DNA from: Paracoccaceae bacterium
GTDB lineage: Bacteria > Pseudomonadota > Alphaproteobacteria > Rhodobacterales > Rhodobacteraceae
Direction: 5' to 3'
Assembly: GCA_020425085.1 (NCBI GenBank)
Contig: JAGQRW010000004.1
Location: 372,001-436,000, forward strand
DNA: 64,000 bases
Shown: piece after piece, positions 49,414 to 56,214 of the stretch
Layout of the letters: each line of letters opens with the position of its first letter
How positions within the stretch are numbered: the stretch's first letter is position 1
The notes under the pieces: generated by a model
Databases searched by the model: none
Seen by the model: the letters and a program-made list of their open reading frames with translations, nothing else
What the model was told of the DNA's origin: nothing
Program-made: the position numbers and the translations under genes

Positions 49414-50061
49414 TCATTTGCGCCTGCCGATCAGCCGCCCCCAGAATCCGCTGGCACGCTTACCCGCCGCATCGGCATGATCCTCGACCCGATCCCAGGC
49501 CTGGTTCATGTCGTCCAGCATGGGATCAATACGACGTTCCCGGAACCGCTGCACCATGCGATAAAGCCTTAGCAGGATCAGCGCCAACAGCACCAGAACG
49601 ATAATGTTGAACCAGGGGATCATGGTCACATCCGGCCCGGCCACCGGCCAGACCGCCACGGCATTCGGATAGATCGACAGGAACTCGTTTCGCCAGCCGT
49701 AGTGGCGCACCGCCACCCATTGCGGTGCCTCTTTGGTGGATTTCAGATCCGCCGCTTCGGCCTGAAGGTTCGAGGTATCGAACTTGAAATAGGGCGGCCA
49801 GCCCCAGCCGGTATCCTCGTTGCGGTAAACCATCGGGCGGCCATTGGTCTGTATCGCCTGAATAAAGAAGACATCGCGGTTGACCCCGGCGGCATTGCCG
49901 GAATCTACCGACCCCCAGAACCAGGTGTTTTCACCGGGATCGACGCGCTTTTCATAGGTGTCGGCGATCCTGACGATGTCCTTTTGCGGCAAGTTGTAAT
50001 TCAGAAAGGCAAATGCCGACAGGGCGACCAGAAAGATCAGGGTCCATTTCACATAACGCAT
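49414..50061 (-). CDS. DUF1523 family membrane protein
   Basis: A 215-residue protein with an N-terminal membrane helix (VKWTLIFLVALSAFAFLNY) and a second one near 148-168 (MIPWFNIIVLVLLALILLRLYRMV). The periplasmic loop between them carries KDIVRIADTYEKRV, GVNRDVFFIQAIQ, YRNEDTGWGWPPYFKFDTSNLQAEAADL, typical of DUF1523. The cytosolic tail is basic. Last gene of the leftward block that includes the AAA+ ATPase; function unknown. Confidence 0.82.
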   Translation of the reverse strand: MRYVKWTLIFLVALSAFAFLNYNLPQKDIVRIADTYEKRVDPGENTWFWGSVDSGNAAGVNRDVFFIQAIQTNGRPMVYRNEDTGWGWPPYFKFDTSNLQAEAADLKSTKEAPQWVAVRHYGWRNEFLSIYPNAVAVWPVAGPDVTMIPWFNIIVLVLLALILLRLYRMVQRFRERRIDPMLDDMNQAWDRVEDHADAAGKRASGFWGRLIGRRK

Positions 50062-50070
50062 TGCATTTCC

Positions 50071-50337
50071 TTACATATAATTCATCACATAGATCAGCGT
50101 TGCCACCACCAGCAGCGGCACGACATAGACCCCGAGGATCAGTTTGCGCCTGAGCGAACTTTGATATTCGCGCATGCCTTCTTCTATATAGGTATCGCGG
50201 TCACCTTCGACACCGCCTGCATCGAATTCCGCCTCAAGCTCATTCCTGGCCTGCCATCGCTGGCGGATCGAAAGATAGACATAGATGACGCTGAGAACCA
50301 CAAAGGCGATGACGAACAGTCGAATACCGGCGATCAT
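50071..50337 (-). CDS. Small two-helix membrane protein
   Basis: An 88-residue protein with two membrane helices (IRLFVIAFVVLSVIYVYLSI and LILGVYVVPLLVVATLIYVM) separated by an acidic loop (ARNELEAEFDAGGVEGDRDTYIEEGMREYQ). Its ATG overlaps the stop of the preceding gene as ATGA, and it precedes the DUF1523 gene by 9 bp. Probably anchors or assembles the block's products; function unknown. Confidence 0.82.
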   Translation of the reverse strand: MIAGIRLFVIAFVVLSVIYVYLSIRQRWQARNELEAEFDAGGVEGDRDTYIEEGMREYQSSLRRKLILGVYVVPLLVVATLIYVMNYM

Positions 50338-51701
50338 CTCTCCCTCCTTACTGCGCCCCAGGGGCCGACCCGGCGGATCATATCCTCGGCCGGTTCCGGC
50401 GGTTGTGTGGCTGCGGGAGCCGCTTCCTCCATGCCGGGTTCGGGGCCGAATAGTTCGGCCCGCGCCCCCGCCTTGTCCAGCGTATATTCCTGGCTCAGGA
50501 AATTCACCACAAAGCTGCGTTTGGCATCATTCCACGTCTGATAGGCGCGATAAAACGCCTGTTTGTGGCAGATGAACAACTGGCGCACATCCATCGGCGA
50601 CAGTTCGGCCAGCAGCATGTTCACCAGATCCCGATCCTTGGTTTGTGCAGCGCGAAGCGTATAGAAATAGGCCGGGTGTTCGGATGATATCTTTGGCCAG
50701 TCGCTGCCATCCTCGACCCAGCGCAAAAGGTCTGCCAGCGCGTGAAACTCTGGCGGCAACTCAGCCAGATGCTGCCGGGCGACGCGCCGCAACTCCGATC
50801 GATTCATGCCGCTCAAATCCTCACCATAAGCCGAGGCGGTATCGACCAGGATGAAATCCAGCCGCTGTCGCAACAGCGCCGATGTGTTGAGGTTGCGCGC
50901 CGAAACGATGCTTTCCACCAGCCGGTTCTGTTCCAGAAAGCGCGCGATGCCGTTGCGATCACCAAACCCGTAAACGTTTTCGATTGGCAGCGGCAGCATC
51001 GCGTCGGGCGGTTCCACCGTGATCGCTGCGGGCTGTTCAACGTCGCGGAATATATAGATACCGCCGAAATGCGAGGTATAGAAATTGTCTTGCCGGTAAG
51101 TGGTAATTTTCAGGCTGACCGGGTTCCTGACGATGTCGCCGGAATTCTTGGCGAGTTCGATCATTTCCGCGATCAGCACGTCATCCCACCAAGCATCGGG
51201 TTCGATTTGAAATCGCTCGATCCGCTTGAGCAATGCCTTGGCGTCCTGAACGTGGTTTTCGGTGGTGTCGGCTTCGATTTCCACCTGACGGATCTGGAAC
51301 AGTTTGGCAGGATCAGCCACCGAATAGACCGAGTTCACCAACTCGCCCGCCACCGCATCGCGGGCGGTCAGCGCGAACAGTTCGGATTCGTTTTCAATGA
51401 TGAACCGTTTCAGGATTTCCCGCGAGGTCGAGAATTTGGCGTTCAGCAGGGGCGCGGTTTTCTGCGCCGTCGAAAGGATGATGAACTGCCGGTTGCAGCC
51501 ATTCGGGTTGAGGTAGAGCGGATCGTTTAGCTCATCACCGATTTCTGGTGCAAAGCCGGAAATATCGACGTGAAACGATGTCAGTTTCGTCTCTTTACCA
51601 GTCAGGTGTTTCAGCGCACGGTTATAGCGTTCCACCAGCGCGGTCGAGTTGACCTCGAACAGGTTGCCATAGATCAGCCCGGCCTTGATCAGACGCATCA
51701 T
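50334..51701 (-). CDS. Unknown protein of the AAA+ block (DUF6638-like)
   Basis: A 455-residue soluble protein starting MMRLIKAGLIYGNLFEVNSTALVERYNRALKHLTGK, with ribosome site GGAGGGG. I recall relatives annotated DUF6638 in Rhodobacteraceae, but the match is from memory. It has no recognised catalytic motif; features include the helix-rich SFHVDISGFAPEIGDEL, YLNPNGCNRQFIILS and a Pro/Ala-rich tail. It is encoded with the AAA+ ATPase and overlaps the small membrane protein gene. Confidence 0.72.
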   Translation of the reverse strand: MMRLIKAGLIYGNLFEVNSTALVERYNRALKHLTGKETKLTSFHVDISGFAPEIGDELNDPLYLNPNGCNRQFIILSTAQKTAPLLNAKFSTSREILKRFIIENESELFALTARDAVAGELVNSVYSVADPAKLFQIRQVEIEADTTENHVQDAKALLKRIERFQIEPDAWWDDVLIAEMIELAKNSGDIVRNPVSLKITTYRQDNFYTSHFGGIYIFRDVEQPAAITVEPPDAMLPLPIENVYGFGDRNGIARFLEQNRLVESIVSARNLNTSALLRQRLDFILVDTASAYGEDLSGMNRSELRRVARQHLAELPPEFHALADLLRWVEDGSDWPKISSEHPAYFYTLRAAQTKDRDLVNMLLAELSPMDVRQLFICHKQAFYRAYQTWNDAKRSFVVNFLSQEYTLDKAGARAELFGPEPGMEEAAPAATQPPEPAEDMIRRVGPWGAVRRER

Positions 51702-51878
51702 CGAACGCCCCTCCGACCCCGGAACCGGGGACCCGATGTTTCGCGTGCGAAACAAATTTCCGCTAGGCCCTTGATTTCCGGTTGGTTAATAAAAGGTGTA
51801 CGTTTACAATGTATTACCATATCACCACCAACCTTGTTAATGGCGATTTTGAACGGCCGGTTGCAAGACGGGATCATG

Positions 51879-52016
51879 TCAAAACCTCATCCAGCCGCCG
51901 GAACCATAGGGCTGCGCACAAACCTTGAAACGGGCGCAAAGCGCCTTTGCCATGAGGGTGTTCCGAGCACAGGCGGGGCCACAGGTCGGTCGCGGAATCG
52001 CTGGTCGGTTGTTCAT
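51879..52016 (-). CDS. Possible 45-residue Cys-rich protein
   Basis: An ATG overlapping the stop of the AAA+ gene as ATGA opens a 45-codon frame, MNNRPAIPRPTCGPACARNT and onward, with four cysteines (about residues 12, 16, 27, 33) in C-X3-C and C-X5-C spacing. The perfect coupling overlap favours translation, but no family is known and the frame may be chance. The rest of the gap to 51701 looks like promoter sequence for the next gene. Confidence 0.35.
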   Translation of the reverse strand: MNNRPAIPRPTCGPACARNTLMAKALCARFKVCAQPYGSGGWMRF

Positions 52017-53956
52017 CCCCGCCCCTCCAGATACCGCCGCTTTGCCTCTTCCATCCGCTGCATATCGCGCACCGCGTTGTCGATGGCGATCTCGTCGGAT
52101 TTGTCGGCATAACGGAATTCGCTGTCGGCGTAGCGGTTGATTTCCTGAATCAGCATTTCGATGGTGATCGGCTGCATCATGTCCTGCAACATCGCCATTT
52201 TCCGGTCGTATTCCTGAAACAGAAACAGGTCGGGATTTTCCATCCATTCATCCGGCAGTTCGATATCCATCGCCCGGACCTTGACCGCGTCGGTAATGTT
52301 CTTGATGGCGCGACCGGTAAAGCGCGGGTCGGCCTGCTGTATCCCTTTGAGATAGGTGCCGAGTTTGGCGATGGTATCCAGCTTGCCGATTTCGGCATGG
52401 ACCCGTTCAAACACCCTGATCAGCCCATCCTCATGCGGGCGCGAATGCGACTGGAACGAGGCGGCGACAGTTTTCTTGATCTCCTGTGCGGCGAACAATT
52501 CATGTTCGCCCAGCGGGATCGTGTGGTTCTTGCCCATCAGAAGGTGCAGGATGTCGATGTAATCCTCGCGGGTTTGCGGCCCGTCCACCAGAAAACGTGC
52601 GCCGGCCCGCTGGCGCAGGGCATCATCGACGTTTTCAGGATAGTTCGAGAACATGCCGAAGGTGCAGTTGCCGCGCACCACAGTATTGGCACCGGCAAAA
52701 CTTTCCATCAGCACGGCGGTAATTTCCAACTGCCCGGCGCTGGATTGCCGGTCACCGCGCTTGCCCGCCAACTGGTCGATATCGTCGATGGTGCCAAAGC
52801 CGATCACGCCGGGATCTATCACGTTGTTGATGAACGCCTTGGCGTTCTGCGCCGATTTGCCCTGATAACTGTCGATGCTTTCGGTCGAAAGGTTCTGAAA
52901 CCGGAACGGATAGCCCGCAACCTTGCAATATTCGCTGATCAACCCGGCCATCATCTGGATAAGCGTGGTTTTGCCGGTGCCGGGCATGCCATCGCCCATG
53001 AAGGTGAAAATGAACCCACCGAGTTCGGCAAACGGGTTGAGCTTGCGTTCAAAATCATAGGCCATCAGCATTTTGCTGAGCTTCATCGCCTGATATTTGG
53101 CGATATGGTTGCCGACCACCTCATTCGGTTTCTTGAAGGTCATTTGCAGCCTGGTCGAGCGCGCCTTCAGTGCCGGTTTGAAACCGTCCACCTCAAAATC
53201 GTCGGCCTCTACCCGGTAGGCAACCGATTGGAACGCCTCCAGACGCGGTGCGGTGCTTGCCCTGAGGCTGATCTTTTCCATCAGTTTTTCAGAAAAGGCC
53301 GAAATTACCGCCACCAGTTTCCCCTCGGAATCGGCAAAGCTGGCGATATCCTGATCCAACTCCCACAATGCGCCGTGGAGGGCGTCGATGCGGTTGTCGG
53401 TCAGGATTTCCTCAACCTCGCCGATCTCGACCCCGTGTTCCATTTCCGGCGCATGGGCCGACAGCAGAAACCGCGTCATGTTGGCGAAAACGTAAAGCGA
53501 GATCAGCGAACTGGCGGTCAGCAGTTCGGAAAACTCCGACGATTTGCCGCTGGCCAGACGGCCCGCCAGATTGTCACGCTTGAGGTCGGCAAGCCCGGTC
53601 TGTTCCTCGAAAAGATCGCTGACGGTATGGGCCACCGCCAATGCGCGGCGCAGGCTTTGCAATATCGTGGCGCGGGCGGGCGAGGTCAGGGGATCATCGC
53701 CGTTGGCCGAAACACTGGCGATCAGATTGACCCCCTCGGGCCGGGCACTGCGTTGCGTCACCAGCCCCGGCGTGGTGGATCGAAACTGCGAACGCCGCGA
53801 TGTGATCCCCGGCGACCGCTCAACCGCCGTGACCGGCGACTTCGCTTTGGCGATGCGCGGTGTGTGGTCGAACCCGTCCAGCATTGCCAGCGCGCTGGCG
53901 TAATGTGCGCGGATCTGATCTTCGGTCAGTTCCATCAGGTTTTGCGATTTGTTCAT
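52013..53956 (-). CDS. AAA+ ATPase
   Basis: A 647-residue ATPase. The N-terminal 330 residues are helical and of unknown fold; the AAA+ module follows with Walker A GDGMPGTGKTTL, a Walker B-like GFGTIDDIDQL, a sensor-like NCTFGMFSNYPENVDDALRQR and the GRAIKNITDAV second-half helix. The Walker B region has Asp-Asp rather than the usual Asp-Glu at its end, which may affect hydrolysis. The C-terminus is coiled (YADSEFRYADKSDEIAIDNAVRDMQRMEEAKRRYLEGRG). Central enzyme of the block; substrate unknown. Confidence 0.85.
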   Translation of the reverse strand: MNKSQNLMELTEDQIRAHYASALAMLDGFDHTPRIAKAKSPVTAVERSPGITSRRSQFRSTTPGLVTQRSARPEGVNLIASVSANGDDPLTSPARATILQSLRRALAVAHTVSDLFEEQTGLADLKRDNLAGRLASGKSSEFSELLTASSLISLYVFANMTRFLLSAHAPEMEHGVEIGEVEEILTDNRIDALHGALWELDQDIASFADSEGKLVAVISAFSEKLMEKISLRASTAPRLEAFQSVAYRVEADDFEVDGFKPALKARSTRLQMTFKKPNEVVGNHIAKYQAMKLSKMLMAYDFERKLNPFAELGGFIFTFMGDGMPGTGKTTLIQMMAGLISEYCKVAGYPFRFQNLSTESIDSYQGKSAQNAKAFINNVIDPGVIGFGTIDDIDQLAGKRGDRQSSAGQLEITAVLMESFAGANTVVRGNCTFGMFSNYPENVDDALRQRAGARFLVDGPQTREDYIDILHLLMGKNHTIPLGEHELFAAQEIKKTVAASFQSHSRPHEDGLIRVFERVHAEIGKLDTIAKLGTYLKGIQQADPRFTGRAIKNITDAVKVRAMDIELPDEWMENPDLFLFQEYDRKMAMLQDMMQPITIEMLIQEINRYADSEFRYADKSDEIAIDNAVRDMQRMEEAKRRYLEGRG

Positions 53957-53997
53957 CTAGCCGTCCGTCTGTCTGTTGCGCCGGGCCTGTCCGCCGG

Positions 53998-55137
53998 TCA
54001 TCTGTAACTCAATATCTGCCCGCTATCGCTGACCACGTATTTCCGGACCCCGCGAAACCCCGGAGGATCGCGTTCCTCCAGCACCTGATAGGGACGTTGC
54101 GGCAGGATCAGGGCGCGGCGCACGTCGCTGGCGCCGGTTTCCGCCTCGGTGCCGCCGAAATGGTCCAGCTTGAAAATCTGGCGCTCGACCTTGCCAAAGA
54201 AACCCTTTTTTTTCGTCTCGACCCGTTCGGACGTCAGGGTTTCCACCGTCCAGGCCAGCGCCCAGTCATTGCCGGCCCCACCATGCGCATCGGCAAGGAT
54301 ACCTTCAAGCGGGCCGTTCTGACGGGTAAAATTGTGCGAATACATCGGCCCCACCAGAATACGCCGGAACAGTTTCGGGTGGATATCGTCAAAATCCCGG
54401 TCAAATCCCTGTGCTATCGTCACCATTTTCAGCGCCAGCAGCGATTGCGCCATCAGATGGCTTTGCACCTCGGGCCAGCGTTTTTCGTCGCGCGGCAATG
54501 CGGTGCGGCCGGTATCGTCCACCAGCATCAGATAGATCGTCGGGATATTCACCTGGCTGTCATAGCTGGCCCAGTGAATGGCGTAGCTGCGCCGTTCCCG
54601 CCCGCTGACGGTCTTGTTTCCAAGCCAGATGATCTCGGGGTGGTTTTGCGCCCAGAACAGGTTGCGCGCCGCCAGACGCTCATAATAAAGCCGCTGCGAC
54701 ATGGCGAATTGCAGCTTCAGCGGCACCTCAAGCTCGTTCAGGATGTGCCGGATCATGTCTTTCTTGAGCTCGGCGGTTGTGGCAAGGCTGCGCATATGCT
54801 GATCGACCTGAAGCGCGTCATTGGCCATTTGCAACAGTTCGGCATAGACCGGAAAGCCGCTGTCGGTGATGTCGATATCCATCGCCTTTGGCAACAGCGA
54901 CGACACCCGCCCCGACATCAGATATTTCAGCGACAGTGCTTCGAAGGTGGCGGAAAGCGCCTGCAAATAATGCCGCAGCACATCCAGTTCCACCGCTTCC
55001 AGCCGATCCCGACCGGCCACCAGTTCCGCCACCTTGTCGAGATGGCCAAGAATACGGCCGAACTTGGCGAAATAGCGCCTGGCCGCGATTGCATCGTCCA
55101 GCGTGCGGTGATCGAGTGTCAGGTCGGTTGCGGGCAT
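53998..55137 (-). CDS. Unknown protein of the AAA+ block
   Basis: A 379-residue soluble protein without recognised domains. It begins with a helical region (RRYFAKFGRILGHLDKVAELVAGRDRLEAVELDVLRHYLQAL) and continues with QFAMSQRLYYERLAARNLFWAQNHPEIIWLGNKTVSGRERRSYAIHWASYDSQVN, possibly mixed alpha/beta. It starts 1 bp after the coiled-coil gene and lies 41 bp before the AAA+ gene, so the three are one unit. Confidence 0.78.
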   Translation of the reverse strand: MPATDLTLDHRTLDDAIAARRYFAKFGRILGHLDKVAELVAGRDRLEAVELDVLRHYLQALSATFEALSLKYLMSGRVSSLLPKAMDIDITDSGFPVYAELLQMANDALQVDQHMRSLATTAELKKDMIRHILNELEVPLKLQFAMSQRLYYERLAARNLFWAQNHPEIIWLGNKTVSGRERRSYAIHWASYDSQVNIPTIYLMLVDDTGRTALPRDEKRWPEVQSHLMAQSLLALKMVTIAQGFDRDFDDIHPKLFRRILVGPMYSHNFTRQNGPLEGILADAHGGAGNDWALAWTVETLTSERVETKKKGFFGKVERQIFKLDHFGGTEAETGASDVRRALILPQRPYQVLEERDPPGFRGVRKYVVSDSGQILSYR

Positions 55138-56214
55138 CTAGGCCCCATAAAGGTTCTTGTCGTGCTTTTCGACGATCTTCTGGAACCGCCGCATGAACCT
55201 TTCGTCGGATTTCGCCTTTTCCTCCAGAACCTTGCGGGCAAACACCATGTGATCTTCGTGCTTTTCCATCATATCGGCCATGCGCTGGTTGGTGGCGGAT
55301 CCGATCGCCGCCATGGCGGTCTGTGCCTCTTGATCGGTCTGAACGCCAATCTCGTTGATCCGGTGGGCCACGTCCTGCTGTTGCGCGGTTTTCAGCGATT
55401 TGGTCAGGGCATCGTAAAGCACCACGCGCTGTTTCGTATCGGTCTGCAACTTGTTGATCAGAACCATCTGTGTCGCCGCCTGGTTCTGCAAACTGTCAAC
55501 CCAGGTCTTGCCTTTTTCGATATAACGTTCCAGCGTCTGGGACTTTGCCAGTTTTACCTGCTCGTCCTGCACCATCTGGTTGTAGCGACTGTTCAGCGCC
55601 GCCAGTTCGCTTTCCAGCTTGGTGCGCGCCGCCGCATCCTGTTCGACGGCAATACGGTTTTCCAACTCTATAATCTTGGGATCCATCGCCAGAATTTCCG
55701 CCCGCAGGCTTTCCAATGCACTCACCGTCGCCTCACGCTCATCCAGCGTGCTGGTAAGGTTGGTTTCCACCTTGGCCTTGTGCTCGTTCAGAACTGCAAG
55801 CTGGCCTTCCAGCAGCGCCACGATGGTATCGGATTTGGCAATCAGATCCTGCAACTTGTCGTCAATGCTGGCGGTACGCATCCGCTCATGCCTGAGGCTT
55901 TCGGATCTGGCCGCGCTGAAGATACCGACAAAGCTTTCCCAGCCGGTCTTATCGCGCATCTCGCTGAAATCCTTGCTGAAACCGGCGGTCACGTCATCCA
56001 GCCCCATGATCAGTTCAGCGATATTGGCGTTCATCAACTCGGTATGGGCATGCACATCGTCCAGCGTCGCGTTTTCGATATCGACCGAAATATCGGCCCC
56101 GGTATCCATCTTGGAATGCGCCACCTCGATGGCGCTGGACAGTTTCGCGATCTTGGCCTCTGCCGCAGCCACTTCTTTCCTTGATCTTTCAATCTGCGCC
56201 CCGAAATCGGCCAT
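55138..56214 (-). CDS. Long coiled-coil protein of the AAA+ block
   Basis: A 358-residue protein made almost entirely of heptad-like helices (IERSRKEVAAAEAKIAKLSSAIEVAHSK; ESLRAEILAMDPKIIELENRIAVEQDAAARTKLESELAALNSRYNQMV), rich in Glu, Lys, Gln and lacking Cys, signal peptide and membrane segments. The architecture is like scaffold or TelA-type proteins, but I do not assign a family. First gene of the leftward block, with a 208-bp upstream gap shared with the divergent deacylase gene. Confidence 0.82.
   Translation of the reverse strand: MADFGAQIERSRKEVAAAEAKIAKLSSAIEVAHSKMDTGADISVDIENATLDDVHAHTELMNANIAELIMGLDDVTAGFSKDFSEMRDKTGWESFVGIFSAARSESLRHERMRTASIDDKLQDLIAKSDTIVALLEGQLAVLNEHKAKVETNLTSTLDEREATVSALESLRAEILAMDPKIIELENRIAVEQDAAARTKLESELAALNSRYNQMVQDEQVKLAKSQTLERYIEKGKTWVDSLQNQAATQMVLINKLQTDTKQRVVLYDALTKSLKTAQQQDVAHRINEIGVQTDQEAQTAMAAIGSATNQRMADMMEKHEDHMVFARKVLEEKAKSDERFMRRFQKIVEKHDKNLYGA

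Follow-up and report, generated by a model that had tools for sequence, protein, structure and literature searches.

A conserved six-gene AAA+ operon with two variable gene slots in a Paracoccaceae bacterium and its relatives, possibly a conflict system

Introduction

What role does a AAA+ ATPase have when it is held in a fixed row of genes, most of whose products lack a characterised relative? The question is raised by six genes at positions 49414 to 56214 of a 64,000-nucleotide stretch of a Paracoccaceae bacterium genome (contig JAGQRW010000004.1, positions 372,001 to 436,000; the whole stretch is termed the window). The six, all minus-strand open reading frames (ORFs), are labelled A to F here, with A first in the reading direction. 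The original prediction, made from the letters of the DNA, was of a membrane-linked remodelling or stress complex. The analysis leads to a different and tentative answer, to which we give a probability of about 0.4, i.e. that the genes constitute a conflict operon, probably directed against phages, in which a AAA+ core controls exchangeable partner genes. The genes keep their order and co-occur, the ATPase motifs are intact, membrane segments are present, and in relatives further genes occupy two preferred slots, where they are coupled to the core at the level of codons. The slot genes and the alleles of E and F are exchanged fast against a nearly constant core. No published description of this operon was found by title in searches on DUF6638, DUF1523, DUF2333 and variable AAA+ defence operons, and for DUF6638 the literature search found no paper.

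Organisation and conservation of the six genes

The genes, and the two junctions at which relatives carry insertions, lie as follows in the window (pLDDT, predicted local distance difference test).

55138..56214, minus strand: gene A, 358 residues, soluble coiled-coil protein, without a family
55137..55138, minus strand: slot 1, the A/B junction, empty in the window, where A and B abut (0 nucleotides)
53998..55137, minus strand: gene B, 379 residues, soluble, without a family; model pLDDT 85.7, no PDB fold match
52013..53956, minus strand: gene C, 647 residues, classical AAA+ ATPase; Walker A 323-330, Asp391-Asp392, N438, R448/R450/R454
51702..52012, minus strand: slot 2, the C/D junction, 311 nucleotides in the window, without a recognisable gene
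50334..51701, minus strand: gene D, 455 residues, DUF6638 protein; model pLDDT 83.5, no PDB fold match
50071..50337, minus strand: gene E, 88 residues, two membrane segments; 4-nucleotide overlap with D
49414..50061, minus strand: gene F, 215 residues, DUF1523 protein, two membrane segments

An ORF check placed the six genes, all transcribed leftward, where they had been predicted; the suggested seventh gene falls away, as the small ORF is already included in the six. The predicted overlaps or short gaps do not extend to C and D, given the 311 nucleotides between them. By hydropathy, transmembrane windows are absent from A to D and number two each in E and F, and the anticipated combination of a long coiled-coil protein with two membrane proteins is present. 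A consensus promoter scan returned 0 sites, versus 3.7 in shuffles, and 10 terminator-like sites were counted, versus 7.7 in shuffles.

The comparison used 80 loci with the best-matching relatives of C, out of at least 579 in species genomes, together with 12 loci from other searches (loci are referred to by L numbers); the sample leans to near relatives because the 80 closest relatives of C were taken. C was read in 91 loci, or 90 without a duplicate (L103 is the same as L062), and gene order was counted in the 79 distinct loci that extend for at least 4 kb ahead of C and at least 6 kb beyond it. The order is A-B-C-D-E-F in 67 of these, A-B-C-D-F in eight and A-B-C-D in two, such that the core A-B-C-D is collinear on one strand in 77 of the 79. 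As for the two exceptions, B of L064 gave a match but was not called as a frame, and L067 yielded no A and only a partial match to B. The gene order is thus conserved rather than scattered, as the original prediction had it, and the six genes are one conserved unit.

Co-occurrence is similarly tight. Among 385 genomes of the window's class, the seven with a strong match to C are also the seven in which D passes the Pfam cut-off, with one extra weak match each, in different genomes. Among 398 genomes of the phylum, 29 have A (E ≤ 1e-3), and the 26 with D (E ≤ 1e-5) all belong to these 29; the three genomes with A and without D (L118, L121, L122) carry only a distant A. In L118 this distant A came from the genome search (E 2e-25), tblastn of A finding nothing in the stretch taken from that genome, and in L121 and L122 no B, C or D was seen. 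The distant A of L121 adjoins a DUF2333 gene (L121:8372-11550) and is preceded by a thymidine-kinase-like gene, as in Sinorhizobium meliloti L136, an arrangement that looks like loss of B, C and D. A-B-C-D is present in L115 and in S. meliloti L136, where the row continues after D with a DUF2333 protein with a hydrophobic N-terminus in place of E and F. Within the window's own family, A occurs in 14 of 27 genomes.

Three Vibrio records (L135, L157, L158; about 0.9 Mb) have a row of four genes ahead of mfd, the proteins of the first record being 33% (A), 28% (B), 40% (C) and 27% (D) identical to those of the window. In all three, A has ahead of it a 279-residue and a 90-residue gene without known role, in the same order, and D is followed by mfd. 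A mobile element was considered as a carrier of the operon and rejected, relatives of A and C being missing from viral contigs and those of C from phage records.

Two insertion slots at A/B and C/D

Insertions are concentrated at two junctions. Gaps of more than 300 nucleotides occur at A/B in 23 of 86 loci and at C/D in 62 of 86, as against 4 of 87 at B/C (L014, L031, L043 and L049), 0 of 73 at D/E and 0 of 72 at E/F; at A/B, 44 of 86 relatives have a gap of more than 200 nucleotides. The genes in these gaps are closely fitted to the core, as judged by comparison with 30 dinucleotide shuffles of the gaps. The shuffles keep the overlap letters (NTGA, where C ends, and ATGA, where D begins) because the core genes partly supply them. 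In 52 of the 62 long C/D gaps an ORF of at least 90 residues begins from -12 to +30 nucleotides of the C stop (shuffles, mean 6.4, maximum 9), and in 45 an ORF of that size ends within about 30 nucleotides of the D start (mean 5.1, maximum 10). A single ORF is coupled at both ends in 25 of the 62 (mean 0.8, maximum 3), and the longest ORF shares the strand of the operon in 55 of 63 C/D gaps, one locus being counted twice. At A/B, ORFs of at least 60 residues in gaps of more than 200 nucleotides are coupled at their start in 40 of 44 cases and at their end in 39 of 44, the shuffles giving means of 9.7 and 8.4 and maxima of 14 and 16, respectively.

The empty state of the C/D slot is represented by loci in which C and D overlap directly by 4 nucleotides (six Roseibium/Labrenzia loci, L119, L120). 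With A abutting B and no recognisable gene between C and D, the block in the window is the form with both slots empty. The sole frame in its C/D gap, of 45 codons (51879-52016), overlaps the C stop as ATGA and may be a leftover or a chance frame; no significant match was seen between this gap and the one of 983 nucleotides in L003, which is the nearest relative.

Exchange of slot genes and of E and F

The rate at which the slots change relative to the core can be judged from 17 close loci, of which 14 bear a Ruegeria title, while three (L028, L039, L054) have other titles and are alike in core and flank. The downstream genes, presumably flagellar, are identical in kind in 16 of the 17, L060 deviating. 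Median identities across these Ruegeria-type loci are 97% for A, 96% for B, 95% for C and 90% for D, and homologous cargo is shared by just 10 of 136 pairs at C/D and 11 of 136 at A/B. The change is abrupt at the borders of the C/D slot, where the last 300 nucleotides of C are 94.5% and the first 300 of D 93.0% identical; the sequence between them has any match in 17 of 136 pairs, and one of at least 200 nucleotides in nine. The GC content at third codon positions (GC3) is 0.77 in 68 core genes versus 0.49 in 23 C/D cargo ORFs (p 1e-12).

E and F also vary, as three types that are concordant in 16 of the 17 loci, with correlations of r 0.90 for E with F and r 0.10 for C with E. By sequence comparison, E and F constitute a third, allelic module, which varies separately from C. 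The variable middle of D (200-320) does not track E-F identity, while the segment 320-360 partly follows it (r 0.52 for E, 0.42 for F).

Products of the slot genes

Most of the cargo is unnamed. Of 78 distinct C/D cargo ORFs of at least 90 residues, 51 have at least two membrane windows and 21 have none. Library scans covered 77 C/D cargo proteins, with 77 flanking proteins as control. Pfam matches above cut-off were to AbiJ_NTD4 (L058, L102), Mrr (L068), DUF559 (L116, L117, L136) and DUF2971 (L026). PADLOC names the cargo of L068 (5e-33) and L026 (1e-23); that of L104 is a DUF3825 protein, and that of L082 matches DrmA (8e-9) and, weakly, a histidine-kinase-type ATPase. On pSymB of S. meliloti (L136:11106-12851) the C/D slot holds the DUF559 gene and an IS4-like element. 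A six-member cargo family (L014/L023) may resemble a putative phage abortive infection (Abi) family, a likeness that no library scan confirmed and that was not counted, and a protein in the A/B slot of an Amylibacter contig (L005:1294-1653) may be similar to a Phd/YefM antitoxin.

The core proteins

As predicted, C is a AAA+ ATPase whose Walker B motif ends in Asp-Asp (391-392). It passes the Pfam cut-off for AAA (PF00004; 4.6e-12) and so belongs to the classical AAA ATPases; its motifs are intact, and Walker A (all but M324), D391, D392, N438, R448, R450 and R454 are invariant across 12 aligned sequences, the most distant of which, a Vibrio protein, is 40% identical. We take these residues to constitute Walker B, the sensor-1 Asn438 and the arginine fingers of the second region of homology. 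The second Walker B acid is Asp, where Glu is usual. The best PADLOC match of C is TRIP13 (3.4e-6), confined to the ATPase domain; the ATPase domains of fidgetin (7e-5) and VPS4 (0.008) are matched weakly, and BchI-ChlI (0.032) far under the cut-off.

D, which had been called a 455-residue unknown and which retains that length, can now be named as DUF6638 (PF20343; 1e-210, 439 of 439 Pfam positions). The assignment of F to DUF1523 is borne out (PF07509; 2.3e-70, 176 of 176 positions), as is E as an 88-residue protein with two membrane segments. A, B and E have no Pfam family above cut-off and are not explained by any Pfam, NCBIfam, PHROGs or PADLOC model, for which there were weak matches only. 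Foldseek searches with the AlphaFold models of B and D found no PDB match at E ≤ 0.001, and a thermosome-like match of D (E 0.022) is not borne out by its model. The AAA+ domain aside, no core protein matched anything characterised in these searches. No MoxR, vWA or TelA family match was found among the six proteins, in keeping with the original view of the block as uncharacterised, and no secretion or delivery family was found among them with Pfam.

Two candidate identities for A were considered and rejected. For TelA there is no Pfam match (in the second Pfam search, among the 25 of 37 families listed), and hhalign gave a probability of 0.8%, with a TelA alignment of only five rows; TelA (PF05816) matches at E 0.11 in 2 of 31 relatives of B are regarded as noise. 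For PspA/IM30 (PF04012) there is likewise no Pfam match, and hhalign gave 8.7% over 53 columns. With neither relation found by profile, the fold of A not having been modelled, the predicted membrane remodelling is not supported. PDB and Pfam coiled-coil matches of A are put down to composition. The window's genome has no PspA match, and a PspA profile match in 1 of 99 loci (L120:2905-3615), downstream of F with a divergent TetR-like gene in between, is ascribed to chance. The same genome has a TelA gene (L125; 1.5e-102) about 82 kb from the block, between two same-strand genes, the first of which is presumably XpaC-like; by profile comparison this TelA is unrelated to gene A.

Discussion

How might the six proteins and their changing partners work? 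C, which probably forms a ring, would act on or through the coiled-coil protein A, with B and D as possible adaptors and with E and F tying the core to the membrane. In relatives one partner gene, or a few, would be inserted at the A/B and C/D junctions, to be translated beside the core, and these partners, i.e. small membrane, nuclease-like and Abi-like proteins, may be effectors or guards that are restrained or fired by the core. The proteins would then form a complex, the core would control the slot products, and phages would be the target. In conflict biology effectors change under pressure from inhibitors. The locus has the look of such biology because the long insertions are nearly all coupled, change fast and lie at two places around a conserved ATPase core. 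Of the original prediction the idea of one conserved unit stands; the variable slots in relatives point away from a general stress complex, over which a conflict system is therefore favoured.

The closest logic elsewhere is that of the MoxR-vWA ternary conflict systems, together with restriction and BREX (bacteriophage exclusion) loci that carry embedded genes. Kaur et al. (2020; PMC7159879) describe the ternary systems as having a AAA+ core, further conserved components and a changing effector. A AAA+ core with other conserved parts and a variable effector is thus common to both; unlike those systems, the present block has no vWA or MoxR family, C scores as PF00004, and the partners A, B, D, E and F differ. 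CBASS (the cyclic oligonucleotide-based antiphage signalling system) regulated by HORMA and TRIP13 proteins is another possible comparison. It too is mentioned in PMC7159879. The best PADLOC match of C, in its ATPase domain only, is TRIP13, but the models of B and D match neither HORMA nor another solved fold, and the six include no cyclase. Embedded accessory genes such as PrrC are carried by BREX and type I restriction loci. BREX loci with embedded accessory genes also feature in PMC12839542. The conserved core carrying embedded genes is shared with these, but no BREX (PglZ, BrxC/PglY, methylase) or restriction protein is present among the six. TelA and A are both soluble, helical and of similar size, and the genome has its TelA elsewhere. 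PspA or ESCRT-III with a VPS4-like ATPase share with the block a coiled coil and a classical AAA protein, but A has no detectable relation to PspA.

Several observations weigh against the conflict operon proposal. The AAA+ domain excepted, the core is not in PADLOC, and the absence of relatives of C from phage records, and of A and C from viral contigs, does not help it. A, B and C exceed the downstream neighbour (92%) in conservation, unlike most defence genes. Both slots are empty in the window, and C/D is empty in the six Roseibium/Labrenzia loci and in the three Vibrio loci; cargo is therefore not obligatory. Nor is exchange equally fast everywhere, since 14 distinct loci of a Yoonia/Loktanella-like group have one family of small C/D membrane proteins with 3-4 predicted helices. 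A Pfam domain that we link with defence was found above cut-off in only 7 of 77 cargo proteins, and one of these, L136, was added to the scan by choice, its annotation already reading endonuclease. At E ≤ 1e-8, 3 of 77 cargo proteins and 0 of 77 flanking proteins are named by PADLOC, too few to show enrichment, and at E ≤ 0.01 the families matched number 25 in the control versus 22 in the cargo, i.e. there is no separation. Furthermore, genes of the AbiJ, Mrr and DUF2971 types normally function on their own, which fits equally well with the slots being a mere hot spot for insertion.

The latter possibility, doubtful but the most serious of the alternatives, is that A to F form a housekeeping membrane-associated AAA+ complex whose A/B and C/D junctions are convenient landing sites, where lone defence genes and other cargo borrow expression and do not cooperate. 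The recognised cargo is of stand-alone types, its low GC3 suggests foreign origin, and the core is very conserved and fixed in place for 16 of the 17 Ruegeria-type loci, with slots that are often empty. Less readily accommodated are the joining of cargo, tightly and on the same strand, to core genes, the near confinement of long gaps to two of five junctions with so few at B/C, the many C/D cargo proteins (51 of 78) that have at least two membrane windows and do not correspond to known stand-alone defence genes, and the exchange of E-F alleles as well.

The original view, taken here as a complex for envelope stress or membrane remodelling in which A would be the scaffold, C the remodeller and the slot membrane proteins the clients, seems unlikely. 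It would account for the two core membrane proteins, the many slot proteins with membrane windows and the replacement of E-F after D by the DUF2333 protein in L115 and S. meliloti L136, but restriction-type and Abi domains in the cargo make little sense as membrane clients, A has no detectable relation to PspA or TelA, and exchange of this kind is unexpected for a stress complex. A locus for recognition of kin or competitors, in which membrane proteins of a polymorphic toxin/immunity-like kind, encoded in the slots and by the E-F alleles, mark self, is highly improbable. The three co-segregating E-F types and the abundance of small membrane proteins in the two hypervariable slots might suggest it, but Pfam gave no secretion or delivery family for the six proteins, and nuclease and Abi cargo are better suited to defence.

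The conflict operon proposal may also be taken further, to a general immune chassis, i.e. an ATP-driven six-gene core with two sockets for unrelated effectors, in which the co-inherited E-F alleles set the inputs that are sensed. We regard this extension as rather unlikely; if it were true, one conserved regulator would arm whichever weapon is plugged in. The operon occurs in Rhodobacteraceae, rhizobia and some vibrios, and it includes three soluble core proteins, A, B and D, without a characterised relative, two of which, B and D, are without a match to a solved fold. Its sockets collect defence-like and unknown genes, and the locus is therefore both a candidate system and a marker for new effectors.

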